64,000 bases of DNA, from NCBI RefSeq assembly GCF_037975245.1, contig NC_092568.1, positions 39,820,631 through 39,884,630 on the forward strand. Reading direction: 5' to 3'. The DNA comes from Apostichopus japonicus. Taxonomy: Eukaryota > Echinodermata > Holothuroidea > Aspidochirotida > Stichopodidae. The position numbers and the translations under genes are program-made. This document shows, piece after piece, positions 1 through 60,859 of this stretch (position 1 is the stretch's first letter; the number at the start of each line of letters is the position of its first letter). The notes under the pieces are model-generated. The model was given only the letters and a program-made list of their open reading frames with translations. It searched no databases and was not told the origin of the DNA.

Positions 1-87
1 ACATTCACTGTGGTTGTGTTCCACAGTGACTCTTGTTCCTATTTTATGATGATTTGTTCTTTTCTTTATCTATTCGTTTCTTTGCAG

Positions 88-2940
88 GGGGTAAGTATTC
101 TCTTGATTACAATTTGTAGATATATGTCATTATCTACTCCACTGTCAACGAAACCATTACTTCCTGTTAATTCTTTATAATTTACACAGCATTGAGTACG
201 TACAATAAAATCATTAACATGTTTATCAATTATATGACTGACAATGTCTTAATGAAGATAGAACGATTCTTCTCAAATGAAATTTTAACTACAACGTTAA
301 ACCATCTGTGGTATAATCTAGTGAAGTGATGATTGAAAACGGAATAGCTAAGGAAAGTTTGTTGGATCAGCTGTAATAAACTCACATTCACTGTGCTTTT
401 TTTTCCCCTTTTTTTTTAACTGTTATGTGACGATTTGTTCTTTCTTCTTCTTCTATATATTCGTTTCTTTGCAGAACGTAAGTCGTTTTCTTGATTAACA
501 TTTGTAGATACGTTTTATTATCAATTCCCCTTTCAATAAACCCACCTCTTTCTGTTAATTCTTTATAAGTTACAAATTTTGAATGAAATATTGTAATTTT
601 TACAACATTGATTATGCACAATCTAAGACAATAACATGTTTAATGTTTCCATGGATCGCAATATATATCAATGAAGATAGATCAATTGTTTTTAAATAAA
701 TCTGTAATTCTACCATTAGTTATTGCAAATATCAGCTAATGAGGTTGAAGGCCGAAAACAGCGGAAAAGCTAAGGAAAGCTATTTGTTTCAATTGTAATA
801 AAGTAACATTTTAAAGTCACCGTGTTTGTGTTATGACTAATTTTCTCTATTAAATATTGATTCGTTCTTTCCTTCTTTCTATCTGTTCGTTTCTTTGCAG
901 GCGGTTAGTAGTTATCATGATTAACGTTTGTAGAACAGTGTGATTATCCATTAACATGATATAAAATATTCCTGTTAATTCTTTATTTGCATACACAATT
1001 TGAATAAAATTTGATAATTGCACAACATTGGTTATGCAAAGTTAAATGCAAGTTAAATAACATGTTAATGGATTATATGAATAGCAATATCAATGAAGAT
1101 ATATCGTTTGTTCTGATATAAACGTGTAATTTTAACTTTAAACCACTCATGATATGAGCTAATGAGATGATGAGCCAAATCAGTGGAAAAGCTTAACATC
1201 CCTGTGTGATTTAATTATTTAAAGAAAATTCGTAATTTGATGTCACTTTGGTTACGTTTTTACTAACTCTTGTCTATTATGTGATGATGTGTTACTTTCT
1301 CTTTCTATCTATTTGTGTGTTATGTTGCAGGTGGTAAGTTTTTGTTTTTGTGATAAACATTTGTAGATTCGTTTCAGTTTCTATTCCCCTTTCAAAGAAA
1401 CTACCAGGAAAATTAGTTCCTTTCAATACTTTACATCCTTATATATTTTGAGTGAAATATTACACTTTGCACAACGTTGATGACGCACAATTAATCAATA
1501 ACATGTTTATCGATAATGTGACTGGTAATGTCAATGAAGATGAAATGATTCTTCTGAAATAACTTAAACTACAACATTTTACCATTAATTGTATGATATA
1601 GTGAGGTGAAGAGTGAAAAGCTAAGTAAAGCTAGTTGGTTCAGTTATAATAAACTCACATCCGTTGTGTTTATGTTTCCAGTCTTATCCCTAATATATGA
1701 TGAATTTCTCTTTAATTTTATCTCTTCGTTTCTTTGCAGGCGGTAAGTCGTTTTCTTAATAAACGTTTGTAGATACGTGTCAATGTATTCTCCGATTTCA
1801 AAAATAACAAGCCAATTCCTGTTAATTCTTAATAATTTACACAGCATTGATGACGTACAATTAAATCATTAACATGTTTATCGATTATATGGCTGGCAAT
1901 GTCAATGTTGATTGAACGATTCTTCGAAATGAACTTGTTACTTCACCGTTTAACCATTAATGGTATGATCTAGTGAGGTAATGGACAAGAAAACGGAATA
2001 ACTGAGGAAAGTTAGTTGGATCAGAACTCACATTCACTGTGTTTGTGTTTCCAGTCTTTTTACTGTTATATGATGATTGTTCTTTCTTCTTTCTATCGAT
2101 TCTTTTCTATGCAGACCGTAAGTATTTTTCTTTCAAACATTTGTAGATACGTATCATTATCTATTCCCCTTTCAAATTAAACACTTCTTCCTGTTAATTC
2201 TTATAATTTACACTATTTGAAAAACATATTGTAACTTTCACTGCTTATAACGCTAATCTAAGACAACATGTTTATTGTTTGCATGGATAACCATGTCGAG
2301 AAAGATAGATCAATTGTTTTTATATAAATCTGTTACTCTAACATTTACCATTGAAGTTATCAGCTGGTGAGGTTAAGAGCCAAAAGCAGCAAAAAAGCTA
2401 AGGAAAACTGGTTGTTTCAAATATAATAAACTGACATTTTAAAGTCACCGTGTTTGTGTTTTTACTGTTTTTCTCTATTATATAATAATTCGTTCTTTTA
2501 TTCTTTTTATCCGATCCTTCCTTTGCAGGTGGTAAGTACTCATCATAAATAACGCTTGTAGAACAGTGTTTTCATCCTTTTTACATGACGGAAATTATAT
2601 TCCTGTTAATTCTTTAGTATCATACGCAATTTGAATGAAATTTTATGTTTTGCAAAATTTAATACAAGTTTAAAAACATGGGTATCGATTATATGAACTG
2701 TAGTTTCAATAAAGAGAGAGCGACTGTTGTAAAATGAATTTATCACTATAATATTTAACCATTGAATTATATGAGCTAGTGAGGTGATTAGCTAAAAACA
2801 TGAAATAGGTTAATGAAAACTAGTGGTTTCAATTATAATAGCTTTCGTTTTATAGTCACAATTTAATATTTTTAAATTGTTATCTATTATATTACGATTT
2901 CTTCTCTTCTTCTTTCTATAAATTCGTTTCGTTGCAGATC
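88..2940 (+). CDS. Single-codon microexons, block A (slots 4-11; 8 exons)
   Basis: Eight cassettes each have AG, exactly three bases, then GT. First base and codon: 88 GGG, 475 AAC, 901 GCG, 1331 GTG, 1740 GCG, 2115 ACC, 2529 GTG, 2938 ATC. Read in phase 0 they give Gly-Asn-Ala-Val-Ala-Thr-Val-Ile, which lines up with slots 4-11 of the later 11-codon blocks. Donors are GTAAGT except at 901 (GTTAGT). Slots 1-3 of this block and the 5' end of the gene are upstream of the window. No upstream coding exon is seen, so phase 0 is inferred from the helix-like pattern and conservative changes between blocks. One other frame also lacks stops; the third reads a stop across GTG-ATC. Confidence 0.6.
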
Positions 2941-3188
2941 GTAAGTCTTTTTCATGATTAACGTTTGTAGATATTTATAATGATCTATTCCACTTTCAAA
3001 GAAGGCACCAGGGGGGTCAAATCCGTTTTATTCTTTATTCTTGAAAAGAAATGTGACAAATTTTACAACATTTGGAATGCACACTTAAATACAATCACAT
3101 GTTTATGGATAACTTTAATTGGAATGTCAATGAAGAAAACCGATTGTTTGGAATTGAATTTGTAACTCTAATATTTACACATGAATGG

Positions 3189-3441
3189 TGTTGTGTCGGT
3201 CCCGGGACAACCTAACAAACGTATAGGAAAACTTCATTGACAAACACTATAACGCAATAGGTCCGTCTAAACGGTTAACGTAATGTATTGTGATTTATTA
3301 ACAAGAAAGTGTTCTTCAAGAAACCTTGGTAGATGTTACATAACACATACCATACCATTCAAATTAAGGTATGCATAAATTAACATATATCAAACAATAT
3401 CGTAAACAGATTATTTGGTGGCGCTAAGTATCTATTCAACA
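3189..3441 (-). repeat. Left LTR (3' LTR of the minus-strand element)
   Basis: It starts TGTTGTGTCGGTCCCGGGAC and ends with CA at 3441, and matches 7719-7971 along its full length. Confidence 0.95.
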
Positions 3442-3646
3442 TTCCTCCCCTTCTTCTCATAAGAATATATATCAATATTCGCAATACTTGTTATACGAAA
3501 TTATTAATTATATGGCACTCGGCAACTTTTCAAAAAAATACGTTTCCTATAAACTTTCTTATTCTAGACTTCTAAAATTACTCACGATGAAATATTAAAT
3601 AGAACAAATTGTTTACGAGTACGTGACGATCGTCTCAAATTAGGTG

Positions 3647-4841
3647 TTACTGAATTTTAAGCTTTTGCCACGTCTGGGACCGAAACAACAACGATTTCAA
3701 ATTCTGTTCCTGCGATTCTACTTCAGAAACGGGAGAACTATTTCTCTTTAAACCATGAGTGACGTCATCAACACCAGTTGATTTCGGTTTATTGATCTCG
3801 TCAGAGTCAACAGTAATATCTAAATCCACAATACTTGGCAAGGGATTTAAACCGTTAGATGTGTGCATTTTACTACTATAAGGCTTACATGATCTTGATC
3901 TGATTTGATTAATATGTCTTTTCCATATATGATCATCAACTTTAACCAAATATTTTACAGGACCCAATACTTTAAAAATGGTGCCTTCAACCTATTTATC
4001 AGACGATGATCTAAAATTCGAAACCATGACCTTTTCTCCTACGGAAACAGATCTAATAGCCTTTTCAGTATTTGAATTCTGTTTCTGTGACAGTGAAAAA
4101 TTCAAATTTGGTTAAAAGAATTTAATTAAAGAATAATTTGGCAGGCGTTTCTTTGGTTAAAGATGATCTATATGACAACAGAAATCGATCGATTTTAATT
4201 TGAACGTTGCCACTTTCGAATTTCCATTTTTTCATTGCCTGTTTCAACGTACGAACAAAGCGCTCTGCTTCGCCATTAGATGCTGGGTGTTTGACAGCAC
4301 TTCTAATATGGCGAATGCCATTTTGCTTGCAAAAGACGTTAAACTCTTCAGCAATAAATTGGGGGCCATTATCTGATACTAGCTCTTTTGGCAAGCCGTA
4401 GCGTGCAAATATGGTCCTCAATTCATTGATAGTTTTATTAGCAGTTGTGGATTTCATTAGGATGACCTCTGGCCACTTTGAATGAGCGTCAACAACTATC
4501 AAATACATATGACCGAGGAATGGACCCGCAAAGTCAACGTGAATACGTTGCCATGGTGCGGTGGGCCATTTCCAAGGATTTACATCAACCTTTGGGAGAA
4601 CAGATTGAACTGATTGACACGCATTACACGATTCAACAAGCTGCTCAATCTGCAAATCTAGACCTGGCCAATACACATGCATCCTAGCAAGTGACTTCAT
4701 CCTTACCATACCAGGATGACTGGCGTGCAATTCGCTTAGAATGCGATCTCGGTAACTCGAATGAATGATCACACGAATTCCCCATAAAAGACAATTGCCT
4801 TCGACGGAGAGTTCATTTCTTTTGCTAAAATATGGCGTCAT
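3647..4841 (-). pseudogene. Integrase region of the Gypsy element
   Basis: The 4841-4122 frame holds an HHCC zinc-binding N-terminus (HASHPGMVRMKS ... VESCNACQ) and the DDE core: first Asp in HVDFAGPF, second in VSDNGPQF, Glu in NGEAERFVRT. The C-terminal part continues in another frame at 3967-3647 (MGPVKYLVKVDDHIWKRHINQIR), resembling the C-terminal DNA-binding segment. A frame change or stop lies between about 4120 and 3970. Catalytic residues look intact but the gene does not read through. Confidence 0.87.
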
Positions 4842-4849
4842 TTCTTTGT

Positions 4850-6296
4850 TTAAGTTTTCTTCCGGCCAACCATACAGAACAAAATGTCTAACTCTTGATA
4901 AAATAGGATCACTACTCGTAGCTGTTGCAATTCTTCTGCGCTGACAGGTAAAGATTGAATTTGCGCCTGATTCAAATCATTAGCTTCATTCGTCCACAAT
5001 ACAGCAAACTGATCAACTGTTTTAAGTTTATTACTAGTATGCGCGCTCGAAGTTGGCAATCTAGAAGAGAAATCTACATTTGCATTTTGTTTGGATGTAC
5101 GGTACTGAATATCATATTCATAACCACTCAGAAGGATAGCCCAACGTTGCAATCTAGATGCGGCTAACACAGGGATGCCTTTGTTAGGACCAAACAGAAA
5201 CTTCAATGGCATATGATCGGTGAACAAAGTGAACCGCTTCCCACAAAAGATATTGGTGGAAAATGCGCACTCCATAAACAATTGCTAGGGTCTCTCTTTC
5301 GATTTGAGAATAATTTTGCTCAGTTTTCGTTAGTTTCCTGGAAGCATATGCAATTGGTTTCTCTCCTTCCGGAGTTGAATGTGAGATAACTGCACCAATA
5401 CCATACGGTGATGCATCAACTGAAAGCGTAATCTCCTTAGAGGGGTCAAAGTACACGAGCCCTTTTGAGGAGGTGAGAATTTCTTTAATATCCTCAAATG
5501 CTTGTTGACAATCGCTAGACCATATAAATGTTTTGTCACATCGCAAAGCTGAAGTCATTGGGGCCATAACAGATGATAAATTTGCATGAAATTTACGATA
5601 ATAATTTATAAGCCCTATGAGTGGTTGCAGTTCCTGCTTATTTTGTGGAGCAGGGGCGTTAACAACAGCCTCAACTTTTGCAGGAGATGGGAGAATGCCC
5701 TTAGCATCTACAATAAAACCAAGATACTCGATCGAGTCCCGAAAATATGAACACTTTGATTCCTTAAGTCTCAAACCAACCTCGTCGAGTTTCTTGACTA
5801 CCTGATCCAAGTTCCTTAAATGTTCTTCGTCAGTTTTACCAGTGACGATAATATCGTCAAGATAGCAACCCACCCCATTCAATCCACCCAAAATTTGGTC
5901 CATGCATTGTTGAAAAATTGCAGGGGCGGAGCTTTACTCCAAACGGTAGTCTTGTATACTGAAAAAGACCTAAATGGGTGTTGATCGTAACATATTTTCT
6001 GGAATCGGGATCTAAAATATTTGCAAGTATGCATTTGACAAGTCTAGTTTTGAGAACTTTTGACCACCCTGCAGCTGTGCAAATAACTCGTCGGGACCTG
6101 GCAAAGGATATTCTTGTTGGTGCATTACTGTGTTAATTGTGACCTTGTAGTCCCCGCAAACCCGGATATTACCGTCCCCTTTTCTCACTGGGACAATTGG
6201 GGCGGCCCAATCAGAAAAATCTACTTTTTCTAGCACACCCTCCTTCACTAGTCTATTTAGCTCTTCTGATACCTTAACCTTGATAGCTAGAGGCAT
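4850..6296 (-). pseudogene. pol: Reverse transcriptase and RNase H region of the Gypsy element (broken frames)
   Basis: Three overlapping or adjoining frames carry the domain in order. 6296-6012 has the fingers/palm motifs WAAPIVPVRKGDGNIR, VCGDY and FSKLDLSNAYLQI. 5903-5184 has the catalytic YLDD box (GCYLDDIIVTGK), the palm/thumb region and the RNase H start (LSVDASPYGIGAVI). 5281-4850 carries the rest of RNase H and its linker (FTDHMPLKFLF, RLQRWAILLSGYEYDI). The breaks near 6000-5905 and 5280-5185 show that the copy cannot make a complete Pol, although the catalytic aspartates are present. Confidence 0.88.
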
Positions 6297-6314
6297 GGGC
6301 CTTGGTTTGTAAAA

Positions 6315-6902
6315 TTAGGGCGTTGCATCAGGTTTTATCCTAAGTTTCGCTTGGATGCCTTTGACTGTACCCAATTTCTTATTAAGTACGTTACTACCAG
6401 ACAATATCTCATTGACTTTGTCTTTTGGTGACAAATACACACGATTGATTTTTTGCCAATTTAAATGCAAGTGTTCCAACCAATTTCGACCCAAAAGGGC
6501 GGGACCATTCCCTTCAATGACAAACAAAGGCAATGCTTTTTCGATTCCATTATCCTTAACTTTAACGCTACATTTTCCTTTTACAGGTATCTTCTCTCCT
6601 GTAAATGTTTTCAAAACTGCTTTTGTGGGTTTAATGTCAACCTTAGTCGACAGTGCCTTAACAAATAGATCGTTTGGAATTAGGGAAACACCAGCCCCCG
6701 TATCAAATTCCATAGTTATCTTTTGGTTTTCAATTTCAACTTGAACTTCAATTGGTTTGCTTGACGCAAGTAACTTTACATAGTAAACTGTGACGTATTC
6801 GTCACCACTCTCTTCACCACTAGTACTAGAATCATATTCAGTGGTTTGATTTACTTCCCCAATTCTCGAACTATGTTTACTCTTTTTACTTGTCCTATGC
6901 AA
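6315..6902 (-). CDS. Retroviral-type aspartic protease region of the Gypsy element
   Basis: The 195-residue open frame has a Ser/Lys/Glu-rich start, then the protease core with catalytic motif FDTGAGVSLIP at about residues 65-75 and the late hydrophobic motif ALLGRNWLEHL at about 136-146. This is the usual order for retropepsins that mature Gag-Pol polyproteins by self-assembly into dimers. It lies between the gag remnant and the reverse transcriptase, as in other Gypsy elements, and ends at 6315 just before the reverse transcriptase frame. In the intact ancestor it would have been part of a polyprotein. Confidence 0.85.
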   Translation of the reverse strand: MHRTSKKSKHSSRIGEVNQTTEYDSSTSGEESGDEYVTVYYVKLLASSKPIEVQVEIENQKITMEFDTGAGVSLIPNDLFVKALSTKVDIKPTKAVLKTFTGEKIPVKGKCSVKVKDNGIEKALPLFVIEGNGPALLGRNWLEHLHLNWQKINRVYLSPKDKVNEILSGSNVLNKKLGTVKGIQAKLRIKPDATP

Positions 6903-6961
6903 AGAATTACGTTCCTTATCACTTGGTTTACTTACATCTGGATTTCGCCTGCAAACAACCT

Positions 6962-7647
6962 TTAAATGTCCAACACAATCACAAATATGACACTTATAGT
7001 CCTTATAATAACAGTCCTTTTTAAAATGTCCTGGTTTACCGCGGCACGAACAGAACAGAACACTCGATGACTCGTTGGCTTAGATGTCACGTGATGAACG
7101 CTGGCCCTGGCAGACCCTTCCTTGATAATTGCTGCGTTTTTGGCGGCGGACTCCATACTCATGGAAATTTTCACGGCATTATCCAGCGTTAATGAATCGT
7201 CTTCCGACAAGAGCCTTTTCTGGATATTATTGTCGTAAATCCCGCAAACGAAGCGGTCACGCAGTTTATCCTTCAGGAAACTTCCGAAATTACACGTGCT
7301 AGTCATTCTCTTAGTTCGGCTAAAAACTCTGCAATTGTAGTTGACGAGCTCTGGTTGTAGTTGTAAAATCGGAATCTCTCCAGTAAAACTGGGGGATTGG
7401 GATTGTAGTATTCTCTCAAAGTCCCACAAATTTCGTGAAACTTCTTCGATGATGGCTTGTCCGGCGATACAAGATTTTTCAAAAGTCCATAGCCTTTTGC
7501 TCCCATTGAAGACAAAAGTATCGCCACTTTTTTTTTATTATCCTCTACCTCATATGCTTGGAAAAACAGATTCAAACGTTCCTCGTATGATTCCCAAATT
7601 TCCACAACAGGATCATAAATCTCCACTTTTAACATGTTGGAAGCCAT
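6962..7647 (-). pseudogene. gag: gag region of the Gypsy element (frameshifted)
   Basis: The frame starts with ATG at 7647, just inside the 5' LTR, reading MASNMLKVEIYDPVVE. The first ~115 codons resemble the capsid-like part of retrotransposon Gag (ESYEERLNLFFQAY, then AILLSSMGAKGYGLLKNL). It continues in another frame from about 7300 (KLRDRFVCGIYDNNIQKRLL) to a nucleocapsid-like end near 7050-6930. There a perfect CX2CX4HX4C zinc knuckle (CHICDCVGHLKVVC) follows a less regular one. At least two frame changes separate these pieces, so a full-length Gag is not encoded. Confidence 0.85.
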
Positions 7648-7718
7648 AGTTTCTCCTTCTCCCGGTAAGAATTCCTTTTGGAACTTACGTTTTATTTCCG
7701 ACTATCCTCCTCGCTAGT

Positions 7719-7971
7719 TGTTGTGTCGGTCCCGGGACAACCTAACAAACTTATAGGAAAACTTCATTGACAAACACTATAACGTAATAGGTCCGTCTAA
7801 ACGGTTAACGTAATGTATTGTGATTTATTAACAAGAAAGTGTTCTACAAGAAACCTTGGTGGATGTTACATAACACATACCATACCATTCAAATTAAGGT
7901 ATGCATAAATTAACATATATCAAACAATATCGTAAACAGATTATTTGGTGTCGCTATGTAACTATCAAACA
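7719..7971 (-). repeat. Right LTR (5' LTR of the minus-strand element)
   Basis: It matches the left LTR with scattered substitutions, most in the last 25 bases, and ends in CAAACA before the target duplication AATGG. Confidence 0.95.
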
Positions 7972-8135
7972 AATGGCATGAGTAAACCAGGTTTTGCGCA
8001 AAAAAAGGACAGCTTATGAAAAGTAGTTGTTTAACCTATCATAAATTTACATTATAAAGTCACTGTATTTTTTTTCTGTTTTTCTCTACTAAATCATAAT
8101 TCGTTCTTTTCTTTCATCTATTCGTTTCTCTGCAG

Positions 8136-11100
8136 ACCGTAAGTCTTTATCATGATCGGCATTTGTAGATACGCGTTATTATCTATTCCCTTTTCAAAGA
8201 AACCACCAGGGATATCAATTCCTGTTAATTCCTAAGTTTCATTCACAATTTGAGTGAAATAGAATCTTTTCAACATTGACAACGCACAATCTAAGACAAT
8301 AACATGTTGATTTTTAACATGGATCGCCATGTCAATGAAGATAGATCAATTGTTTTTAAATTATTTTGTTACTCTAACATTAACCATCGATATTATCAGC
8401 TAGTGAGGTTAAGAGCCAAAAGCATCAAGCTAAGGAAACTAGTTGTTTCAATTTAAATAAACTGACATTTTTACTGTTTTTCTCTATTACATATTGATTC
8501 GTTCTTTTCTTCTTTCTATCTGTTCGTTTCTTTGCAGGCGGTAAGTTGTTATCGTGATTAACGTTTGAAGAACATTGTAATTATCTATTAACATGAGGGG
8601 AAAATATTTTATGTTAATTCTTTAATTTTATACACAATTTGAATAAAATTTGATAATTTGCACAACACAGGTAACGCACGATTTAATACAAGTTTAATAA
8701 CATGATTGTTGATTATATGATTGGCAATATCAATGAAGAAAGATCGTTTGTTCTGAAATAAATGTGTAACTTTAACTTCAAAACATTAATGATATGAACT
8801 AATGAGGTGATGAGCTACAACAATGGAAAAGCTTAACAAAACTCTTTGATCTAATCATAAAAAACAATCGCAATTCAAAGTCACTTTGTTTACGATTTTA
8901 CTAACTCTTGTCTATTATGTGATGATGTGTTACTTTCTTTTTCTATTTATTTGTGTGTTTTGTTGCAGTCGGTAAGTTTTTTTACGTGATTATATTTGTA
9001 GATTCGTGTCAGTTTCTATTCCCCTTTCAAAGAAACCACCATGCACATCAGTGAATATTTTGAATGAAATTGAAACTACAGCATTGAAACATTAATGGTA
9101 TGATCTACCGAGGAGATGAGCGAAAAACAGAAAAAAAAAGCTAAGGAAAGCTAGTTGGATCAGTTTTAATAAACTCACATTCACTGTGTTTGTGTTTCCA
9201 GTCTTTTTCCTATGATATGATGATTTTTTCTTTTCTTTATCTATTCGTCTTTTGCAGGGAGTAAGTATTAGTCTTGATTAACGTTTGTAGATACGTGTCA
9301 TTATCTACTCCAATTTCTAAGAAACCATCACTTCATGTTAATTCTTCATAATTTACACAGCATTGATGAAGTACAATTAAATCATTAACATGTTTTTCGA
9401 TTATGTGACTGACAATGTCTTAATGAAGTTTGAACGATTCTTCTAAAATAAACTTGTAACTACAACGGTAAACCGATAATGGTATAATCTAGTAAAGCGA
9501 TGAGCGAAAAGCGAAATAGCTAAGGAAAGTTAGTTGGACCAGCCTTAATAAACTCACATTCCCTGTGTTTGTGTTTCCAGTCTCTTCACTGTTAAATGAT
9601 GATTTGTTCTTTCTTCCCTCTATATTTTGTTTCTTTGCAGGACGTAAGTCTTTATCATGACTAACCTTTGTAGATAAGTTTTATCATTAATTCCCCTATC
9701 AAAGAAATACACCTATTCCTGTTAATGCTTTATAATTTACAAACATTTGAATGAAATATTGTAATTTTCACAACACTGATAATGCAAAATCTTAGACAAT
9801 AACACGTTGATTTTTTCCATGGATCGCAATATAAGTCACTGAAGATAGATCAATTGTTTTTAAATAAATCTGTAACTCTACCATTAGCCATTGAAGTTAT
9901 AAGGGAAGCTGGTCACTTCGCCCAACAACCATTTCGCCCAACTGCCATTTCGCCCAACCTTACCATTTCGCCCAACCAGCCTGTTCATTTCGCCCAACCA
10001 GCCTGGTCATTTCGCCCAACCAGCCTGGTCATTTCGCCCAACCTTGATTAAATATTATACTTCAATAAGGAAACGTTCGGGAATTGTTAACGTTACAGGA
10101 TACGTGTTTTAGGGGTTAGGTTTGATAGGAAACGTTCGGGAATTGTTAACGTTACGGGATACGAACCGAATATTACGGAAAGTTGAAGTCGTGGTTAAAT
10201 TGATAAAGTGGTAACATTGATTAAATATACTACTTCAATATTACGGACGGGTTTTATATTTTTTTGGTAAGGAAACTCGGGAATTGTTAGTCGGTAGGAT
10301 GGATCAGTGTTTTAGGGGTTAGGTTTGATAGGTTTTTATGGGGACTGATTCCCCTTTGTTTGTACAATAAAATAACTTCCATTGTATGCGTAACCGCCTA
10401 AAGTAGTGTAATCCTGCCATTATACCCGAAATAACTGCTTAGATTCCGATCGATATCGAACGGACATCACTTTATTTACCTATCACGAAGTAATATAACC
10501 CAAAATAAATCAAATTGAACTAGTGAAATAGAAAAGTCATGTTATTATTCTGACTGAATATGAGTAAAAAATGGTTGGGCGAAATGACCAACAAGGTTGG
10601 GCGAAATGACCAACAAGGTTGGGCGAAATTACCATGCTGGTTGGGCGAAATTACCATGTTGGTTGGGCGAAATGGTTGTAGGGTGAAGTGACCAGAAAGC
10701 GTTATAAGCTAGTGAGGTGAAAGGCCGAAAGCAGCAGAAAAGCTAAGGAAAACTATTTGATTCAGTTGTGTTTTGACTTTTTTTCTGTATTAAGTTTTGA
10801 TTCGTTCTTTCTTTCTTTCTATCTATCTGTTCGTTTCTTTTCAGGCGGTTAGTAGTTATCATGATTGACGTTTGTAGAACAGTGTTATTATCTATTAACA
10901 TGATGGAAAATATTCCCGTTAATTCTTTATTTGCATAAACAATTTGAATGAAATTTGATAATTTGCACAACATTGGTACGCAAAGTTCAATACAAGTTTA
11001 ATAACATGTTTATAGATAATATGAATAGCAATATCAATGAAGATAGATCGTTTGTTCTGAAATAAATTTGTAAGTTTTTATGTTAAACTATTAATGATAT

Positions 11101-17405: not shown

Positions 17406-17823
17406 GTAAGTCTTTTTCATGATTAACGTTTGTAGATATATATAACAATCTATTCCATTTCAAAGAAGGCACCAGGGATTTGGAAGTCAGATCCTTTTTA
17501 TTCTTTATTTTTAAATAGAAATATGATAATTTTTACAACATTAGGAATGCACAATTGAATATAATAACATGTTTATGGATTACTATAATTGGAATGTCAT
17601 TGAAGATAAAGCGATTGTTTTCTATTGAATTTGTAACTCTAATATTTACACATGAATGGTATAAGTGAACCAGGTTTTGTTCCAAAAAAGGACAACTTAT
17701 GAAAACTAGTTGTTTAAGTTATTATAGAGTTACATTTTGAAGTCACTGTGTTTTTATATTTATATGTTTTTCTCTTTTATATAATAATTCGTTCTTTTCT
17801 TTCATCTATTCGTTTCTCTGCAG

Positions 17824-20800
17824 AAGGTAAGTCTTTCTCATGATCAAAATTTGTAGATACGAGTTATTATCTATTTCCTTTTCAAAGAAACCACCAGGGA
17901 TATTAATACCTGTTAATTCCTAAGTTTCATTCACAATTTGAATGAAATATAATGTTTTCAATATTGGTAACGCACAATGTATGAAAATAACATGTTGATT
18001 GGTCACATGGATCGCCATGTCAATAGAGATAGATCAATTGTTTTTAAATATATGTGTATCTCTAACATTACCCATCGATGTTATCAGCTATTGAGGTTAA
18101 GAGCCAAAAGCGGCAGAACAGCTAATGAATTTAGTTGTTTCAATTATAACAAACTGACATTTTCATGTCATCGTGTTAGTATGTTTACAGTTTAACTGTT
18201 TTTTCTCTATTAAATGATGATTCGTTCTTTAATTCTATCTATCTGTTCGTTTATTTGCAGGCGGTAAGTTGTTATTATGATTAACGTTTGGAGAACAGTG
18301 TTATTATCTATTAACATGACGGAAATATTTCCTGTTAATTCTTTATTTTGATACACAATTTGAATAAAATTGTATAATTTGCATAAGATTGGTAACGTAC
18401 GATTTAATACAAGTTTAATAACGTGATTGTAGATTATATGATTGGCAATTTCAATGAAGATAGATCGTTTGTTCTGATATAAATTTGTAACTTTAACTTT
18501 AAAACATTAATGATATCAGCTAATGAAGTGCCACAACAGTGGCATAGCTTAAAAAACTGATTGATTCAATCATGAAAAAAACTCGCAATATGATGTCACA
18601 CTTTTTACATTTTACTTAATCTTGTCTATTTTGTGATGATACGTTACTTTCTTTTTCTATCTATATGTGATTCTTGCAGTTGGTAAGTTTTTTTTCCGAT
18701 TAACATTTGTAGATACTTGTCAGTTTCTATTCCCTTTCAAAGAGATCACCATGCAAACCAGTTCCTTTAACTTCTTCATTTCCTTACACAATTTGAGTGA
18801 AACATTCCAATTTTCACAACACTGATGACACACAATTATATCAATAAAATGTTTATCCATTATGTGACTGGTAATGTCAATGCAGATAAAAATGAATCTT
18901 CTGAAAAGAGATTGAAACTACAGCATTGAAACATTAATGGTATGATCTAGTGAGGTTATGAGCGAAAAACAGGGAAAGCTTAAAAAAGCTAGTTGGATCA
19001 GTTGTGATAAACTCACATTCACTATGTTTGTGTTTCCATTCTTTCTCTATGATATGATGATTTGTTCTATTCTTTTAAATATTCGTTTCTTTGCAGGGGG
19101 TAAGACTTCTTCTTGATTGACGTTTGTAGATACGTGTCATTATCTACCCCCCCCCCCCCCCTCGCAAATAAACCAGTAATTCTTGTTAATTCTTCACAAT
19201 TTACACAACATTGATGACGTACAATTGAATCATTAACATGTTTATCGATAGATGAGTGGCAACGTCGATGAAGATCAAAAGGATTCTTCTGAAATGAACT
19301 TATAACTACAACATTTTAACCATGTGTGGTATAATCTAGTTAAGTGATGAGCGAAAAACGTAATAGCTAAGGAAAGTTAGTTGGATCAGCTGTTTTAAAC
19401 TAATATTCGCTGTGTTTGTGTTTCTAGTCTTTTCACTATTATATGATGATTTGCTCTTTCTTCCTTCTATATATTTGTTTCTTTGCAGGAAGTAAGTCTT
19501 TTTCTTGACATTTGCAGATAAGTGTTAATATCTATTTCTCGTTCAAAGAAACCCAGTTATTCCTGTTAATTCTTCAAAATTTACAGAATTTGAATGAAGT
19601 CATTGTAATTTTCACAACATTGATAATGCACAATCTATGACAATAACATGTTGATTGTTAACATGGATCACAATGTCAATAAAGATAGATCAATTGTTTT
19701 TAGATAAATTTGTAACTCTAACATTAACCATGGCAGTTATCAGCTAGTGAGATTAAGAGCCGAAAGCAGAGAAAAGCTAAGGAAACTATTTGTTTAAATT
19801 ATAATAAACTGACATTTTAAAGTCACCATGTTTGTGGTTTTACTGTTTAACTCTTTTTTTTATTTTAAATATGGATTTGTTCTTTTTTTTATCTGTTCTT
19901 TTCTTTGCAGGCGGTAAGAAGTTGTCTTGATCAACGTTTGAAGAACAGTGTTGTTATCTATTAACATGAGGGAAAATATTCCTGTTAATTCTTTATTTAC
20001 ATACACAATTTGAATAACATTTAATAATTTGCACAACATTGGTAACGCAAAGTTCAATATAAGTTTAATAACATGTTTATGTATAATATGAAAAGCAACA
20101 TCAATGATGATAGATCGTTTGTTCTGAAATAAATTTGTAATTTTAACGTTAAACCATTAATGTTATTAGCTTATTATTGATGAGCCACAACAGTGGAAAA
20201 CTTAACAACACTGTTTGATTCAATTATTTAAAGTAAACTCGTAATTTGAAGTCACTGTGGTTACGTTATACTGATTCTTGTCTATTTTATGTGATGATTT
20301 GTTACTTTCTTTTCTATCCATATTTTTGTGCAGCTGGTAAGTTTTTTGTGAACTTACATTTGTAGATTCGTGTCAGTTTCTATTCCCCTTTCAAAGAAAC
20401 CAACAAGCCAATTAGTTCCTTCCAATTCTTTACATCCTTATACAATATGAGTGAAATATTACAATTTGCACAATGTTGATGACGCACAATTACTCAATAG
20501 CATGTTTATCGATTATGTGACTGGTAATGTCGATGTTATTCTTCTCAAATGAACTTGTAACTCAACAGTTTACAATTGATGATATGATAAAGTGACGTGA
20601 TGAGTGAAAACTTTAGTAAGGCTAGTTGGTTCAGTTGTAATAAACTCACATTCGTTGCATTTATGTTTCCAGTCTTATCCCTATTATATGATGATTTGTT
20701 CTTTACTTTTATCTATTCGTTTCTTTGCAGGGGGTAAGTCGTTTTCTTGATTAACGTGTGTAGATAGGTGTCATTGTCTACTCCGATTTCAAAGAAACCA

Positions 20801-21924
20801 CCGATTCCTGTTAATTCATTATAATTTACACAGCATTGATGACGTACAATTAAAGTATTAACATGTTTATCGACTATATGGCTGGCAATGTCAATTGAAT
20901 TTGAACCATTCTATGAAATGAACTTGTAACTACACCGTTTAGCCATAAATGGTATGATCTAGTGAGGTAATGAACAAAAAACTGAATAGCTAAAGGAAGT
21001 TGGTTGGATCAGCTGTTTTAAACTTACATTCACTGTGTTTGTGTTTCCATTCTTTTCTTGTTATATCATGATTTGTTCTTTCTTCTTTCTATCGACTCTT
21101 TTCTATGCAGACCGTAAGTCTTTTTCGTAATAAACATTTGAAGATATAAATCCTTATCTACTCCCCTTTCAAATAAACCACTGATACCTGTTAATTCTTA
21201 TAATTTACACTATTTAAATGAAATATTGTAACTTTCACAACATTGATAATGGACAATCTATGACAATAACATATAAATTGTTAACGTGGATCGCCATGTC
21301 AATGAAGATAGATCAATTGATTTTAAATAAATTTGTTACTCTAACATTAACCATTGCAGTTTTCAGCTAGTGAGGTTAAGAGCCAAAAGCAGCCAAAAAG
21401 CTAAGGAAAACTAGTTTTTGTTTTTGTGTTTTTATTGGTTTTCTCTTTTATATCATAATTCGTTCTTTTCTTCTTTTCATCCAATCCTTTCTTTGCAGGT
21501 GGTAAGTACTCATCATAATTAACGTTTTAGATCAGTGTTATTATCTTTTAGTATGAGGGAAATTATATTCCTGTTAATTCTTTAGTTTCATACACAATTT
21601 GAATGAAATTTAATAATATTCATAGCATTGGTAACGCACAATTTAATACAAGTTTAAAAACATGTGTATCGATTATATGAATGGTAGTTTCAATAAAGAG
21701 AGAGCGACTGTTGTGAACTGAATTATCACTTTTATATTTAACCATTAAAGATATGAGCTAGTGAGGTGATTAGCTACAAACATGAAAAAGGGTTAAGGAA
21801 AACTAGTGGTTTCAATTATATTAGCTTTCCTTTCAAAGTCACTATTTTGATATTTTCACATTTTCATCTATTATGTTACGATTTGTTCTCTTATTTTTTC
21901 TATCTATTCGTTTGGATGCAGATG
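17824..21924 (+). CDS. Single-codon microexons, block D (11 exons, KALGEALGTVM)
   Basis: Eleven cassettes: 17824 AAG, 18261 GCG, 18680 TTG, 19097 GGG, 19489 GAA, 19911 GCG, 20334 CTG, 20731 GGG, 21111 ACC, 21499 GTG, 21922 ATG. In phase 0 they read Lys-Ala-Leu-Gly-Glu-Ala-Leu-Gly-Thr-Val-Met. Compared with blocks B and C the changes keep residue character: Asp to Glu at slot 5, Ile to Met at slot 11, Ser/Val to Leu at slot 3, Ala to Gly at slot 8. The Thr and Lys of slots 1 and 9 are swapped. Donors at 19097 and 19911 are GTAAGA. A run of about 15 C lies in the intron after 19097. The pattern looks like selection on a peptide more than free drift, though the splice consensus itself favours GNG codons. 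Confidence 0.65.
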
Positions 21925-22336
21925 GTAAGTCTTTTTCATGTTCAACGTTTGTAGATATATATAACGATCTATTCCACTTTCAAAGAAGGCACCAGGGAGT
22001 CAAATCCTTTTTATGCTTTATTCCTAAAAAAGAAATGTGACAATTTTCACAACATTAGGAATGCACAATTGAATACAATAACATGTTTATGGATTACTTT
22101 AATTGGAATGTCAATGAAGATAAACCGATTGTTTGGAATTTAATTTGTAACTCTAATATTAGCACATGAATGGTATAAGTGAACCAGGTTTTGTTCCTAA
22201 AAAGGACAGCTTATGAAAACTAGTTGTTTACTTATCATAGACTTACGTTTGGAAGTCACTGTATATTTATTTTTATCTGTTTTTCTCAATAATATAATAA
22301 TTCGTTCTTTTCTTTTATCAATTCGTTTCTCTGCAG

Positions 22337-25300
22337 AAGGTAAGTCTTTATCAGGATAAACATTTGTAGATACGTGGTATTATCTATTCCCCTTTTAAAG
22401 AAACCACCAGGGATATCAATAATTCCTAAGTTTCATTAACAATTTGAATGAAATATAAAGGTTTCAACACTTGTAACGCACAATCTATGACAATAACATG
22501 TTGATTGTTTACATGGATCGACATATCAATAGAGATTGTTTTTAAATAAATGGGTAACTCTAACATTACCCATCTATGTTATCAGCTAGTGAGATTAAGA
22601 GCCAAAATCAGCAGAACAGCTAAGGAAACTAGTTGTTTCAATTATAATAAACTGACATTTTAATGTCACCGTGTTAGTGTTTTACTGTTTAACTGTTTTT
22701 TCTCTATTAAATGATGATTCGCTCTTTTCTTCTTTCTATCTGTTCGATTCTTGGCAGGCGGTAAGTTGTTATCATGATTAACGTTTGCATATCAGTATTA
22801 TTATATATTAACATAAGGGGTAATATTTCCTGTTAATTCTTTATTTTGATACACAATTTGAATAAAGTTTAAAATTTGCCCAACATTGGTAACGCACGAT
22901 TTAAGTTTAATAACTTGATTATTGATGATATGAATGGCAATATCGAAAAGATAGATCGATTGTTCTGAAATAAATTTATCACTTTAACGTTGAGACATAA
23001 TTATATGAGCTAATTAGGTGATAAGCCACAACAGTAGAAGAGCTTAACAAAACTGTTTGATTCAAGTATAAAAAATATTCGCAATTTGAAGTCACTGTGT
23101 TTAAGTTTTTACTGACTCTTGTCTATAACGAAATTATTTGTTACTGTTTTTCCTATCTACTTGGGATTTTTGCAGCTGGTAAGTTTTCTTAAATTTAAAT
23201 TTGTAGATACATGTCAGTTTCTATTCAAATTTCAAAGAGAACAATAGGCAAATCAGTTCGTTTATATTCTTCATTGCCTTACACAATTTCAGTGAAATAT
23301 TACAATTTTCACAACATTAATGACGCACAATTTAATCAAGAACGTGTTTATCGATTATATGATTGGTAATGTCAATGGAGATAAAATGCTTCTTCTGAAA
23401 TGAAGTTGTATGTACAACATTTTACCATTGATAGTATGATCTAGTGAGGTGTTGAAAGCTTGAAAAGCTTAAGAAAGCTAGTTAGATCAGTTGTAAGAAA
23501 CTAACATTCACTGTGTTTATGTTTCCGTTCTTTTCCCTATTATATGATGATTTGTTCTTTTCTTTTATGTATTCGTTTGTTTGCAGGCGGTAAGTCCTCT
23601 TCTTGATTAACGTTTTTGTAGATACATGTCATTATATACTCCACTTTCAAAGACACCACCAATTTCTGTTAATTCTTTATAATTTACACAACATTGATGA
23701 CGTACAATTTAGTCATGTTATAACATGATGTCATAACAATAACATGTTATAATACGACTGGCAATGTCAATGAAGATAGAACGATTCTTCCGAAATGAAC
23801 TTGTAACTACAACATTTAACCATTAGTGGTATGATCTAGTGAAGTGATGAGCGATAAACGTAATAGCTAAGGAAAGTTAGTTGTTTTGGCTGTTATAAAC
23901 TCACCTTCGCTGTGTTGTGTTTCCAGTCTTTTCACTGTTATATGATGATTTGTTCTTTCTTCTTTCTATCGATTCCTTTTTCTTTGCAGCCCGTAAGTCT
24001 TTATCATTATTAATATTGCAGATACGTGTTATATATTAATTCTCCTTTCAAAGAAACCATCAGACATATCATTTCCTGTTAATTTTTAAGTTTCATTTAC
24101 AATTTGAGTGAAATATAATTTTCACAACATTGGTAACGCACAATCTATGACAATAACATGTTGATTGTTTACATGGATAACCATGTCAATGAAGATAGAT
24201 TATTTTTTTTAAATTGAATTTTTAACTCTTACACATTCATCATCGATGTTATTAGCTAGTGAGGTTGAGAGCCAAAAGCAGATTTTCGTTTGTAGAACAG
24301 TGTTGCTACCTATTAACATGAGGGAAAATATTTTCTGTTAATTCTTTATTTTGATACACAATTTGAATAAAGTTTATAATTTGGACAACATTGGTAACGC
24401 ACGATTTAATACAAGTTTAATAAAATGAATATTGATGATATGAATGGCAATATCAATGAAGGTAGATCGATTGTTCTGGAATAAATTTGTAACTTCAACG
24501 TTAAGACATGATAATATGAGCTAATTAGGTGATAAGCCACAACAGTAGAAGGGCCTAACAAAACTGTTTGATTCAAGTATCAAAAAAACTCGCAATTTGA
24601 AGTCACTGTGTTTAAGTTTTTACTGACTCTTGTCTATAACGAAATGATTTGTTACTGCTTTTCCTATCCATTTGGGATCTTTGCAGCTGGTAAGTTTGTT
24701 TTTAATTAAAATTTGTAGATACATGTCAGTTTCTATTCAATTTTCAAAGAAAACAATAGGCAAATCAGTTCGTTTAAGCAGTGTTATTATCTATTCACTT
24801 CTAGGAAAATATTTCCTATTAAGTCTTTATTTACAAACACATTTGGAATAAAATTTTGTAATTTGCACAACATAGGTAACGCACGATTTAATACAAATTT
24901 GTTCACATGTTTATTGAATATATGAATAGAAATATCGATGAAAATATATCGAATGTCATGAAATACATTTGTAACTTTTAAGTTAAACCATTAATTTTGA
25001 AGTCACTGTGTTTGTGTTTTTATTGTTTTTCGCTCTTAAATATTGATTCGTTCTTTCCTTCTTTCTATCTGTTTGTTTCTTTGCAGGCGGTAAGTAGTTA
25101 GCATGATTATCGTTTGAAGATCAGTGTTATTATCTATTATGATACAAAATTTGAATAAACTTATATAATTTGCACAACATTGGTAACGCACGAATTATAC
25201 AAGTTTAATAACATGATTGTTGATTAAATGATTGGCAACATTAATGAAGGTAGATTGATTGTTCTGAAATATATTTGTAACTGTAACATTAGGAAATAAA

Positions 25301-27124
25301 TAATATGAGCAAATTAGGGTATGAGCCACAACAGTGGAAAAACTTAACAAAACTGATTGATTAAAGTATAAAAAATACTCGCAATTTGATGTCACTGTAT
25401 TTAAGGTTTTTACTGATTCTTGTCTATTATTAAATGATTTGTTACTTTTTTTCCTACCCATTTGGGATTAATGCAGATGGTAAGTTTTTTTTAATTAAAA
25501 TTTGTAGAAACATGTCAGTTTCTATTCAACTTTTAAAAAACCATCATGCAAATCAGCTCCTTTAAATTCTTTATTTCCTTACACAATTTGAGTGAATTAT
25601 GACACTTTTCACAACATTGATGACGCACAATTTAATCAATAACGTGCTTATCGATTGTATGACTGGTAATGCACAACTTGGTAACGCACGAATTATACAA
25701 GTTTAATAACATGATTGTTGATTAAATGATTGGCAACATTAATGAAGGTAGATTGATTGTTCTGAAATATATTTGTAGCTGTAACATTAGGAAATTAATA
25801 ATATGAGCAAATTAGGGTATGAGCCACAACAGTGAAAAAACTTAACAAAACTGATTGATTAAAGTATAAAAAATACTCGCAATTTGATGTCACTGTATTT
25901 AAGGTTTTTACTGATTCTTGTCTATTATTAAATGATTTGTTACTTTTTTTCCTACCCATTTGGGATTAATGCAGGTGGTAAGTTTTTTTTAATTAAAATT
26001 TGTAGAAACATGTCAGTTTCTATTCAACTTTTAAAAACCATCATGCAAATCAGCTCCTTTAAATTATTTATTTCCTTACACAATTTGAGTGAATTATGAC
26101 ACTTTTCACAACATTGATGACGCACAATTTGTAACTTTAACGTTAAGACATAATAATATGAGCTAATTAGGTGATAAGACACAACAGTAGAAGGGCCTAA
26201 CAAAACTGTTTGATTCAAGTATAAAAAGACTCGCAATTTGAAGTCACTGTGTTTAAGTTTTTACTGACTCTTGTCTATAACGAAATGATTTGTTACTGTT
26301 TTTCCTATCCATTAGGGATCTTTGCAGGTGGTAAGTTTTTTTTTTTTTAATTTAAATTTGTAGATACATGTCAGTTTCTATTCAATTTTCAAAGAAAACA
26401 ATAGGCAAATCAGTTCGTTTAAACAGTGTTATTATCTATTCACTTCTAGGAAAATATTTCCTATTAAGTCTTTATTTACAAACACATTTGGAATAAAATT
26501 TTGTAATTTGCACAACATAGGTAACGCACGATTTAATACAAATTTGTTCACATGTTTATCGAATATATGAATAGCAATATCGATGAAAATATATCGAATG
26601 TCATGAAATACATTTGTAACTTTTAAGTTAAACCATTAATTTTGAAGTCACTGTGTTTGTGTTTTTATTGTTTTTCGCTCTTAAATATTGATTCGTTCTT
26701 TCCTTCTTTCTATCTGTTTGTTTCTTTGCAGGCGGTAAGTAGTTAGCATGATTATCGTTTGAAGATCAGTGTTATTATTTATTATGATACACAATTTGAA
26801 TAAACTTATATAATTTGCACAACATTGGTAACGCACGAATTTATACAAGTTTAATAACATGATTGTTGATTAAATGATTGGCAACATTAATGAAGGTAGA
26901 TTGATTGTTCTGAAATATATTTGTAACTGTAACATTAGGAAATTAATAATATGAGCAAATTAGGGTATGAGCCACAACAGTGGAAAAACTTAACAAAACT
27001 GATTGATTAAAGTATAAAAAATACTCGCAATTTGATGTCACTGTATTTAAGGTTTTTACTGATTCTTGTCTATTATTAAATGATTTGTTACTTTTTTCCT
27101 ACCCATTTGGGATTAATGCAGGTC
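22337..27124 (+). CDS. Single-codon microexons, block E and rearranged copies (12 exons)
   Basis: Cassettes: 22337 AAG, 22758 GCG, 23176 CTG, 23587 GCG, 23990 CCC, 24687 CTG, 25087 GCG, 25477 ATG, 25975 GTG, 26328 GTG, 26732 GCG, 27122 GTC. All keep AG and GTAAGT. In phase 0 they read Lys-Ala-Leu-Ala-Pro, then Leu-Ala-Met-Val-Val-Ala-Val. The 11-slot order holds to 23990 and then breaks. The slot-6 cassette was deleted at about 24283, where one unit body joins directly to GTTTGTAGAACAG of another. A ~1.16-kb segment (24492-25650) is repeated at 26134-27295, with a third partial copy between. Proline at slot 5 would end a helix, so this part may be a different domain or decaying sequence. Confidence 0.5.
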
Positions 27125-27578
27125 GTAAGTTTTTTTTTAATTAAAATTGTAGAAACATGTCAGTTTCTATTCAACTTTTAAAAAACCATCATGCAAATCA
27201 GCTCCTTTAAATTCTTTATTTCCTTACACAATTTGAGTGAAATATGACACTTTTCACAACATTGATGACGCACAATTTAATCAATAACGTGCTTATCGAT
27301 TGTATGACTGGTAATGTCAATGGAGATAAAATGCTTCTTCTGAAATGAAGTTGTATGTACAACATTTTACCATTGATGGTATGATCTAGTGAGGTGTTGA
27401 GCGAAAAACAAGGAAAAGCTTAAAAAAAGCTAGTTGTATCAGTTAAACCATTAATGATATGGGCCAATGAAGTGATGAGATTTGAAATCACTGTGTTTAC
27501 ATTTTTACTGACTCTTGTCTATTGTGTGATGATTTTTTAAATTCTTCTTTCTATCTATTTGGTGTTGTTTTTTGGCAC

Positions 27579-29930
27579 CTGGTAATTTTTTTTGTGATTA
27601 TATTTGTAGATACGCGTCAGTTTCTATTCCCCTTTCAAAAACACTATCAGGCAAATCAATTCCTTCAAATTCTGTATTTCAATGAGTTAGTTAGTTGGTT
27701 CAGCTGTAATAAACTCACATTAATTGTGTTTTTGTTTCCAGACTTTCACTGCGATATGATGATTTGTTCTTTCTTTTTTCTATCTATGCCTTCTTTACAG
27801 AAGGGAAGTCTTTATCATGATTAACATTTGTAGATATAGATAATGATCCATTCCACTTTCAAAAAAGGCACCAGCGAAGTCAATTTCTTTTTATTCTTTA
27901 TATTTAAATGAAATGTGACAATTTTCACAACATTAGAAATTCAAAATTGACTAAATAACATGTTTATGGATAACTTTAATTGAAATTTCAATGAAGATGA
28001 ACCGATTGTTTGGAAATAAGATTGTAACTTTAATATTTAAATATGAATGTTATGAGTGAACCAGGGTTTGGGGGGAAAAAGAAACTAAAGGAAAAAACTA
28101 GTTGTTTAACTTTTTAGAAACTTAAATTTTAGAGTCACCGTGTTTGTGTTTTGACTAATTTTCTCTATTAAATATTGATTCGTTCTTTCCTTCTTTCTAT
28201 CTGTTTGTTTCTTTGCAGGCGGTAAGTAGTTATCATGATTATCGTTTGAAGAACAGTGTTATTAACCATTATGAAGGATAATATTTCCTGTTAATTCTTT
28301 ACTTTCATACACAATTTGAATAAAATTTTATAATTTGCCCAACATTGGTAACGCACAATTTTATACAAGTTTAATAACATGATTGTTGTTTAAATGATTG
28401 GCAACATCATTGAAGATAGATCGATTGTTCTGAAATATATTTATAACTGTAACATTAAGACATTAATAATATGAGCAAATTAGGGGATGAGCCACAACAG
28501 TGGAAAAGCTTAACAAAACTGATTGATTAAAATATAAACAACACTCGCAATTTGAAGTCGCTGTCTTTAAGTTTTTACTGATTTTTGTCTATTATTAAAT
28601 GATTTGTTACTTTTTTTCATACCTATTTGGGATTATTGCAGTTGTTAAGTTTTGTTTTAATTAAAATTTGTAGAAACATGTCAGTTTATATTCAACTCTT
28701 AAAAAACCATCATGCAAATCAGCTCCTTTAAATTCTTTATTTCCTTACACAATTTGAGTGAAATATTACAATTTTCACAACATTGATGACGCACAATTTA
28801 ATCAATAACATATTATCGTTTACATGGATCGCCATGATTGACGTTAGAAGATCAGTGTTATTATTTATTAACATGAATTAAATTAGTTCCTGTTAATTCT
28901 TCATTTTCATACACAATTTGATATGAAATTCTAAAATAATTTGCACAGCAATGGTAACCCACAATTTAATGCAAGTTTAAAAACATGTTTATCGATTAAA
29001 TAAATGGCAATGTCAATAAAGAGAAGAGCGACTGTTGCGAAATAAATTTATCAGTATAATATTCAACTATTGAAAGAATATGAGCTAGTGAAGTTACGAA
29101 CAGAAAACATGAAAAACATTCAGGAAAACTAGTTGTTTCAATTATAATATCTTACATTTTGTAGTCACTATGTTGTTGTTTTTACTGTTTTGTATATTAC
29201 ATGAAAATAGAACAATTGTTTTGAAATGATTTTTTTACTTTTACATTTAACCATTGATGATATGAGCTAGTGAGGTGATGAGACGAAAACTGTGGAAAAG
29301 TTCAGGAAATTAGTCTTTTGTCCTATAATAAATTGAAATTTAAAGTCACTGTATTTGTGTTTTTCCTTTTTCTTATCTATGATACGATGATTTGATCTTT
29401 CCTTTTTTATTTAATAGGGTCTTTAGAGCTGGTAAGCTTTCTTTCTTTTTTCATGATATACGTTGGTAGATACCTGTGATTATCTTTTCACCTTTAAAAA
29501 ATCTACCAGGGATGTCAATTTATGGTAATTCCTTTATTTTAATTTTGAATTAAATATTTTAATTTTTACAACATTGGTCACGCTAAAGTGATAACAAATG
29601 TCTATAAAGCTAGAACGATTGTTTTGAAATGACTTAGTTTTTCACAACATTGGCAATGCTCAATTTGAATACAATAACATTTCAATAGAATATATGAATG
29701 GCAAAGTCATTGAAGATAGAACGATTTTTTTAAATGAATTTGTTACTTTAACTTTTCAATGTTGATGATATGAGCCACAGAGATGATCATTCAAAAACAG
29801 GTTTTAGAAGACTGGTTTTGTCACTTAAAATGAACTTACATTTTAAATGTATTTGGGTTCTCTTTTGTTCTTCTCTATGATATAATGATTTAATTTTTCT
29901 TCTTTTTATCTAATCGTTTCTTTGCAGCTG
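27579..29930 (+). pseudogene. Degenerating microexon cassettes at the right end of the array
   Basis: Six cassettes: 27579 CTG (acceptor changed to AC, donor GTAATT), 27801 AAG (donor changed to GG), 28219 GCG (intact), 28642 TTG (donor changed to TT), 29429 CTG (unusual acceptor TTTAGAG, donor GTAAGC), 29928 CTG (intact). Unit bodies with no cassette occur at about 29190 and 30410. Damage concentrates here, with irregular spacing (219-784 nt), which contrasts with the uniform units to the left. Either this edge no longer contributes to the transcript and has drifted, or only the intact cassettes (28219, 29429, 29928) are used. The contrast itself argues that splice signals in the rest of the array are under constraint or frequent homogenisation. 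Confidence 0.6.
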
Positions 29931-35529: not shown

Positions 35530-35531
35530 TA

Positions 35532-40468: not shown

Positions 40469-40476
40469 CACGCGGA

Positions 40477-59908: not shown

Positions 59909-59969
59909 TTTTTGTGCTGAATCTCTCCCTAGTGATATTGCAATTGGAGCAACAAACTTGAATGCTGAT

Positions 59970-60857: not shown

Positions 60858-60859
60858 TT

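Follow-up and report, generated by a model that had tools for sequence, protein, structure and literature searches.

Comparison with Described Micro-Exon Systems

Micro-exon genes (MEGs) offer the closest described comparison for the locus treated here, a 64,000-nt stretch of the genome of the echinoderm Apostichopus japonicus (C8:39,820,631-39,884,630; "the window" throughout), in which exon-like cassettes of only three bases follow one another in tandem. On the mitochondrial contig of this genome (16,099 bp), COX1 is free of internal stops and shows the expected residues when translated with table 9, which echinoderm and flatworm mitochondria use; the fit of tables 1, 2, 4 and 5 is poorer. 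As excerpted from PMC7653826, the working definition of a MEG calls for micro-exons of less than 70 nt that are divisible by three. Schistosome MEGs, in the excerpted text of PMC10526429, have exons of 3 or 6 to 81 bp, mostly 15 bp, with 10-20 short exons per gene, and carry an N-terminal signal peptide. Excerpts of PMC9168663 describe one megacycle gene of aphids, with 118 exons in ~100 kb and 2092 residues, as having apparently grown by internal tandem duplication, and the internal exons of the bicycle genes as almost all phase 2, with CYC motifs in the proteins. Isolated microexons are known in RPS24, where excerpts report three in a row, measuring 3, 18 and 22 bp (PMC12686416), and in the plant genes APC11 and VPS55, which are given there as having 1-nt microexons (PMC8831610).

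The gene of the window is called G2 in the following, and its paralogues on the same chromosome G1 and G3. As predicted gene models they hold 140 (G1), 77 (G2) and 45 (G3) in-order cassettes with AG and GT. Like the MEGs of schistosomes and tapeworms in the excerpted descriptions, they display series of very short exons, each a multiple of three in length and set apart by long introns (PMC10526429), and variation by single residues through skipping is conceivable, as in flatworm MEGs (PMC10526429, PMC7653826, both in excerpt). All of the micro-exons predicted from the sequence stay below 70 nt in multiples of three, being 3 nt long apart from three of 6 nt and three of 36 nt in G1. Unlike in schistosome MEGs, the internal exons are nearly all one codon, 45-140 of them are consecutive, they resemble one another through tandem duplication, the predicted N-termini show no obvious signal peptide by inspection, and the host is an echinoderm. 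By the working definition of PMC7653826, the predicted genes would qualify in structure as micro-exon genes, at the extreme of that kind. With the bicycle and megacycle genes, as excerpted, they share numerous very short exons mostly of one phase (PMC9168663), but this phase is 0 and the cassette codons encode no cysteine and no tyrosine, which places them outside that family, and the exons of the one megacycle gene described, at 118 for 2092 residues, are far longer than 3 nt.

Isolated microexons of 3 nt or 1 nt show that such exons can be spliced, yet they occur one or a few per gene and not by the dozen in tandem. An earlier reading of the window, made from the letters alone (the sequence-only reading), knew of no gene with dozens of consecutive one-codon exons, and we likewise found no report of one in the open-access literature searched. 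Amphipathic repeats of 11 residues are found in synuclein, perilipin, LEA proteins and apolipoproteins. The 33 joined frame-0 codons of G2, spliced as we propose, have the same 11-residue period and a hydrophobic moment near 98 degrees, and they differ from the known families in giving no sequence match above the Pfam cut-offs.

The Cassette Array and Its Paralogues

In our reading, the window covers the greater part of a protein-coding gene with two paralogues, and almost all internal exons of the three would consist of one phase-0 codon each; we put the probability of this at roughly 0.83. The evidence that can be taken directly from the DNA consists of the cassettes, their spacing and constancy, the paralogues, a shared phase, a shared stop exon and an 11-unit repeat; transcription, the splicing of all or most cassettes, and translation are what we infer from it. 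It is quite probable that the family codes almost the whole middle of its proteins one residue per exon (45-140 in a row), that it has grown residue by residue and that the residues can be skipped independently.

In the window there are 59 cassettes, each formed by a pyrimidine tract with AG, three bases and a GTAAGT-like donor. A recount returned the figures of the sequence-only reading, with AG and GT both present in 56 of the 59, and found all of them on the + strand as claimed. The distance from one cassette to the next is 289-437 bp in 50 of 58 cases (median 414 bp among those 50), and the introns between the proposed one-codon exons would measure ~400 bases. Cassettes are found in 59 of the ~62 units of the array; the nhmmer unit profile gave 71 matches in the window, certain units being divided between two matches, and in one unit, near 24282, the cassette portion is missing through loss. 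The trinucleotides have a G+C content of 70%, versus 29% in their flanks, in part because both outer bases are biased towards the splice consensus (G at the first exon base in 32/59, at the last in 45/59).

When the 59 units are aligned with gaps allowed, the trinucleotide starts in one and the same column in every unit and is free of gaps, and the mean gap fraction in the remaining columns is 0.405, which bears out the earlier statement that the unit bodies carry indels. Constancy lies at 98-100% in the AG and GT columns and averages 79.7% over 235 well-filled columns of the introns, 13 of which likewise reach 98%. That the three-base length never varies, as had been claimed, holds for the 59 cassettes of the window and fails for the family, since paralogue G1 has three 6-nt exons, one of them with a broken donor.

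The exon length was also assessed with acceptor-side and donor-side profiles, which were built and run separately and yielded 245 acceptor and 236 donor calls. In 208 of the 245 acceptor calls a donor lies exactly 3 nt further on, a count to be read with the fact that both models were trained on cassettes already known as 3-nt exons and that the training cassettes are among the 245. Only two acceptors pair elsewhere, with donors at 62 and 68 nt, and 35 have no donor call inside 150 nt. Of these 35, 34 nonetheless have GT at +3, among which two read TAG and one reads TAA, the last being a register slip. Conversely, 26 donors lacked an acceptor call; 23 of them have a correctly placed AG, and three, all in G1, have the AG six bases back.

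Before cassettes were counted, seven rows were left out: 39710208, where AG and GT are absent; 39763240 and 39764377, apparently intact CTG cassettes 59-65 nt past a retained one; 40688598 (TAA) and 40705451 (TAC), taken as register slips, each 4 nt to the right of a retained cassette; and 39769166 and 39770809 (AG, TAG, GT), which belong to truncated 137-nt units of G1. Added were two cassettes with poor sites and five of 17 candidates picked by eye for their unit likeness; the 12 candidates left out include a TAA at 39773004, again 4 nt to the right of a retained cassette.

The C8 stretches analysed were 39,710,001-39,940,000, which includes the window, and 40,650,001-40,730,000. The first cassette of the array, itself broken, is found at C8:39,811,131, 9.5 kb beyond the left edge of the window. 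The gene G2 covers 43,517 bp, from ~11.5 kb beyond that edge to window base 32001, with a total of 84 cassettes, 77 of which have AG and GT. The extent given by the sequence-only reading is thus right for the 59 cassettes in the window and too short for the gene, which runs beyond its left edge; the expected yield of under 60 codons was too low, as ~43.5 kb would give ~91 codons, provided that every one of the 77 intact cassettes is used. The proposal of a gene region made of tandem one-codon exons gains support from the two further arrays with the same anatomy (Table 1). A few more cassettes at C8 39.58-39.60 Mb, a stretch seen in part, possibly represent a fourth gene of the family.

Throughout the genome searched (671.6 Mb, 35 contigs), the exact 20-base pattern TTTCTTTGCAGNNNGTAAGT has at least 74 matches; each of these 74 is on the + strand and falls within C8:39,582,701-40,697,876, with no reverse-strand match and no control match genome-wide. 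Repeat counts from such an exact-pattern search are lower bounds, and the confinement rests on exact matching, so that weaker arrays may exist elsewhere. Because the pattern is restricted to one region and one strand of the genome, the cassettes are not a product of chance.

Table 1. Coordinates of the arrays, their parts and neighbouring elements (positions in the window unless given on C8).
Feature	Position	Strand	Remarks
G1 array	C8:39,717,899-39,789,665	+	140 AG/GT cassettes among 144 listed
G3 array	C8:40,674,171-40,705,447	+	45/45 cassettes with AG and GT
Tandem array of the window, ~62 units of ~370-440 bp (some partial)	7..30676	+	nhmmer unit profile
8 cassettes: 88, 475, 901, 1331, 1740, 2115, 2529, 2938	88..2940	+	GGG AAC GCG GTG GCG ACC GTG ATC = G N A V A T V I
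11-codon block 1	8136..12884	+	part of 11-unit higher-order repeat; ACC GCG TCG GGA GAC GCG CTG GCG AAG GTG ATC = T A S G D A L A K V I
11-codon block 2	13297..17405	+	11-unit repeat; T A V G D A L A K V I
11-codon block 3	17824..21924	+	11-unit repeat; K A L G E A L G T V M
12 cassettes starting 22337 to 27122	22337..27124	+	K A L A P L A M V V A V
Tail of array, partial decay	27579..29930	+	damaged: 27579 CTG (AC instead of AG), 27801 AAG (GG instead of GT), 28642 TTG (TT instead of GT); AG/GT present: 28219 GCG, 29429 CTG (acceptor poor, judged by eye), 29928 CTG
Downstream exon, 30 nt	31972..32001	+	acceptor tttacag, donor gtattg; flanks conserved right of three arrays
ATG-containing exon-like segment, dispersed repeat, no component of the gene	30820..30896	+	26 genome-wide matches including itself, on many contigs
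Long terminal repeat (LTR) retroelement, no component of the gene	3189..7971	-	gypsy-like by eye from open reading frames (ORFs); LTRs 96.4% identical

Flanking Exons and Reading Frame

The exon with the ATG (exon 2) is common to the three genes and has 14 coding nt (ATG and 11 nt), ending in phase 2. Exon 4 measures 22 nt in G1, 16 nt in G2 and 28 nt in G3; all three versions are open, equal 1 modulo 3, differ in length by multiples of three and deliver phase 0 to the array. The N-termini predicted from the exons translated by eye are MSGNSNEFFTLN (G1), MAGNDLKTVH (G2) and MPGHDFNHGRNQRN (G3), all of them polar by inspection and lacking an obvious signal peptide. Additional exons may lie between exon 4 and the first cassette. 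An alternative "exon 3", read by eye, is open after exon 2 in G2, has a stop in G3 and the wrong phase in G1, and would leave an intron of ~44 nt; it was dropped. A signal-peptide-like exon at 30820, which resembled the beginning of a gene for a secreted protein, was likewise rejected as gene start, being a dispersed repeat that is also missing from the aligned copy of G3.

On the other side of the arrays, the downstream exon reads in phase 0 as GRKI-stop in G2, as EHRN-stop and ERGN-stop in the two copies of G3 and as YQK-stop in G1. An in-phase TGA is present in four of the seven copies, the remaining three being open 36-nt exons of G1. The four TGAs occupy matching places and may be a single inherited stop, and since this is the probable origin they should not be taken as four independent facts. 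The one-codon-exon reading is strengthened by this phase-0 handover in three genes together with the TGA in 4/7 downstream copies, and also by the codons themselves, as frame 0 is free of stops in the retained cassettes and the codon order of G2 suits an amphipathic helix.

Frame 0 has no stop among the 262 retained cassettes. Frame 1 has two stops in G1, six in G2 and one in G3, frame 2 has 10, 0 and 0, and frame 0 alone is stop-free in all three genes; taken by itself, this is moderate evidence for coding. The regular part of G2 reads TASGDALAKVI TAVGDALAKVI KALGEALGTVM in frame 0 (33 codons), a repeat of 11 residues. The helical hydrophobic moment of these 33 residues peaks at 98 degrees, the value for an 11-residue, three-turn helix. 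When the 11 positions were reordered, 64 of 20,000 orders reached the G2 moment at 100 degrees; the reordering test at 98.2 degrees gave 24/5000 for frame 0, 279/5000 for frame 1 and 428/5000 for frame 2. The codon order of G2 therefore suits an 11-residue amphipathic helix, provided that splicing proceeds as proposed. Frame 0 of G3 is VVFVGGSALAAIGVTGVVGVVAMFGFALVATTIL, a hydrophobic run whose best 19-residue hydropathy is 2.32, versus 1.61 and 0.31 in frames 1 and 2. In G1, frame 0 gives a Ser/Arg/Glu-rich part, a Gly run, an Ala/Gly/Leu part and DDDDD.

The three 36-nt exons of G1 (locus L010; C8:39,782,225, 39,785,316 and 39,787,585) have conserved flanks and quite different exon sequences, with introns better conserved than exons.

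Several observations weigh against a family of one-codon exons. Broken cassettes make up 7 of the 84 in G2, and in G1 as first listed 4 of 144 fail to show AG and GT, three of these four being the 6-nt exons. The two TAG cassettes of G1 would shorten its product if they were spliced in, and they speak against full function of this paralogue. Stops expected from column composition number 6.8 in G1, 0.3 in G2 and 0.4 in G3; the stop-free count is informative mainly for G1, and duplicated units are not independent of one another. The maxima of the moment are 0.446 in frame 0, 0.584 in frame 1 and 0.454 in frame 2, so that frame 0 is not the top one; only the order test favours it, the absolute moment being higher in frame 1 and similar in frame 2. 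The comparison of the sequences to the left of the arrays did not find an exon 1, and "exon 3", if used, breaks the frame in G1 and G3. Neither a retrocopy of the joined codons nor the joined peptide was matched in the genome, in searches run without a positive control. A protein search for homologues of the joined codons returned nothing at E 10 or better, the best PDB hit was non-significant (E 0.48), and all Pfam matches were below the cut-offs, the nearest for G2 being a weak one to the Senescence family (E 0.013). Rfam and tRNA scans of the window gave no matches.

Evolution of the Array

Within the 38 units that form the regular part of the G2 array, out of 84 in the gene, the nearest relative by intron sequence only is a multiple of 11 units away for 35, relatives having been sought among those 38. 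This points to an order of growth in which single units were probably duplicated first and 11-unit blocks later. Across 27 homologous cassette pairs between 11-unit repeats, the trinucleotides differ at 16/81 sites and the introns at 945/8509 (Fisher p 0.02), and 9 of the 11 changed codons are nonsynonymous. Trinucleotides that change faster than introns as the splice sites stay constant hint at diversifying selection, on small numbers.

Alternative Explanations

The same faster change of the trinucleotides, with its 9/11 nonsynonymous codons, would also fit a version of our reading in which the cassettes are genuine 3-nt exons that are freely skipped, producing many isoforms which differ by single residues. 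Skipping any retained cassette would preserve the frame, as all are symmetric phase-0 codons, and the proteins of flatworm MEGs vary by one amino acid in this way according to the excerpted text of PMC7653826. The strength of the splice sites in the window and their likeness to one another would suggest constitutive use, and we regard free skipping as a tentative possibility.

A decaying family, in which the arrays formerly coded and G2 is now losing cassettes, is unlikely. It would explain where the seven broken cassettes of G2 lie, four within the first quarter and three within the last 6%, as well as the insertion of an LTR element and a dispersed repeat into this gene. At the 79.7% constancy of the intron columns, however, ~0.797^4 = 40% of cassettes would be expected intact in the absence of constraint, against 56/59 observed, and all 45 cassettes of G3 are intact.

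Somewhat less credit still goes to noncoding arrays of splice sites that serve as platforms or decoys for splicing factors, with the trinucleotide as a mere spacer, an account that is improbable here. The splice signals are indeed the most conserved parts, and G at the first and last exon base (32/59 and 45/59) may be counted with them. A spacer would leave unexplained the phase agreement of upstream and downstream exons in three genes, the stop-free frame 0, the outcome of the helix order test and the hydrophobic run of G3; moreover, it would be free of any multiple-of-three constraint, yet the exceptions in G1 measure 6 nt.

Ratchet points of recursive splicing, by which a giant intron would be removed stepwise and nothing more, resemble the juxtaposed acceptor and donor seen here, but such points have a 0-nt exon (AG directly before GT) that leaves nothing in the mRNA, whereas three bases separate AG and GT in 208/245 acceptor calls and the test for recursive splicing found no 0-nt pair among the 245, which makes this the most improbable account of all.

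Proposed Mode of Expression

If the cassettes are indeed one-codon exons, a start codon would be supplied by a leader exon, an exon of 16-28 nt would set phase 0, 45-140 one-codon exons would follow and a short stop exon would end the frame. In most cassettes the pyrimidine tract is long and the GTAAGT donor close to consensus, and each intron of ~400 nt would be recognised by intron definition, the strong flanking sites presumably offsetting the missing exon. The ribosome would then translate the joined codons. The unit of growth would be "half intron - codon - half intron", whose tandem duplication would add one residue and leave the frame undisturbed; in G2, later duplication of 11-unit blocks would have added 11 residues, or three helical turns, at a time. 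The product of G2 would be a protein of ~91 residues, polar at its N-terminus and containing amphipathic helices of the 11-mer type, and our guess for its function is binding to membranes or lipid surfaces by way of these helices.

Other Elements in the Window

The LTR retroelement interrupts the intron that separates cassette 2938 from cassette 8136, and its ORF pieces look gag/pol-like by eye. Parts of 31926-64000 are a segmental duplication common to all three genes, which is conserved at the level of DNA and interrupted by insertions. An ORF near 38820 lies within this DNA-level conservation and was set aside, no coding signal being established. Further to these, there are a reverse-transcriptase-like ORF fragment at 39991-40656 (by eye), ORFs on the - strand at 58171-60869, one with a zinc-finger-like Cys/His pattern and probably from a transposon (by eye), and GGTAAA-rich tandem arrays with a 108-bp tandem repeat at 35530-36830 and 46268-46861.

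Implications

Should transcripts confirm it, the family would have an extreme split-gene architecture, in which a precursor of tens of kb yields ~90 codons. Such genes would likely have been overlooked by standard gene finders and RNA aligners. Exons of 3 nt are held to be too short for exon definition. These genes would, if our reading is true, lend themselves naturally to tests of intron definition and of the way in which the spliceosome handles successive microexons, and they would suggest a route by which proteins may lengthen by single residues without frameshift.

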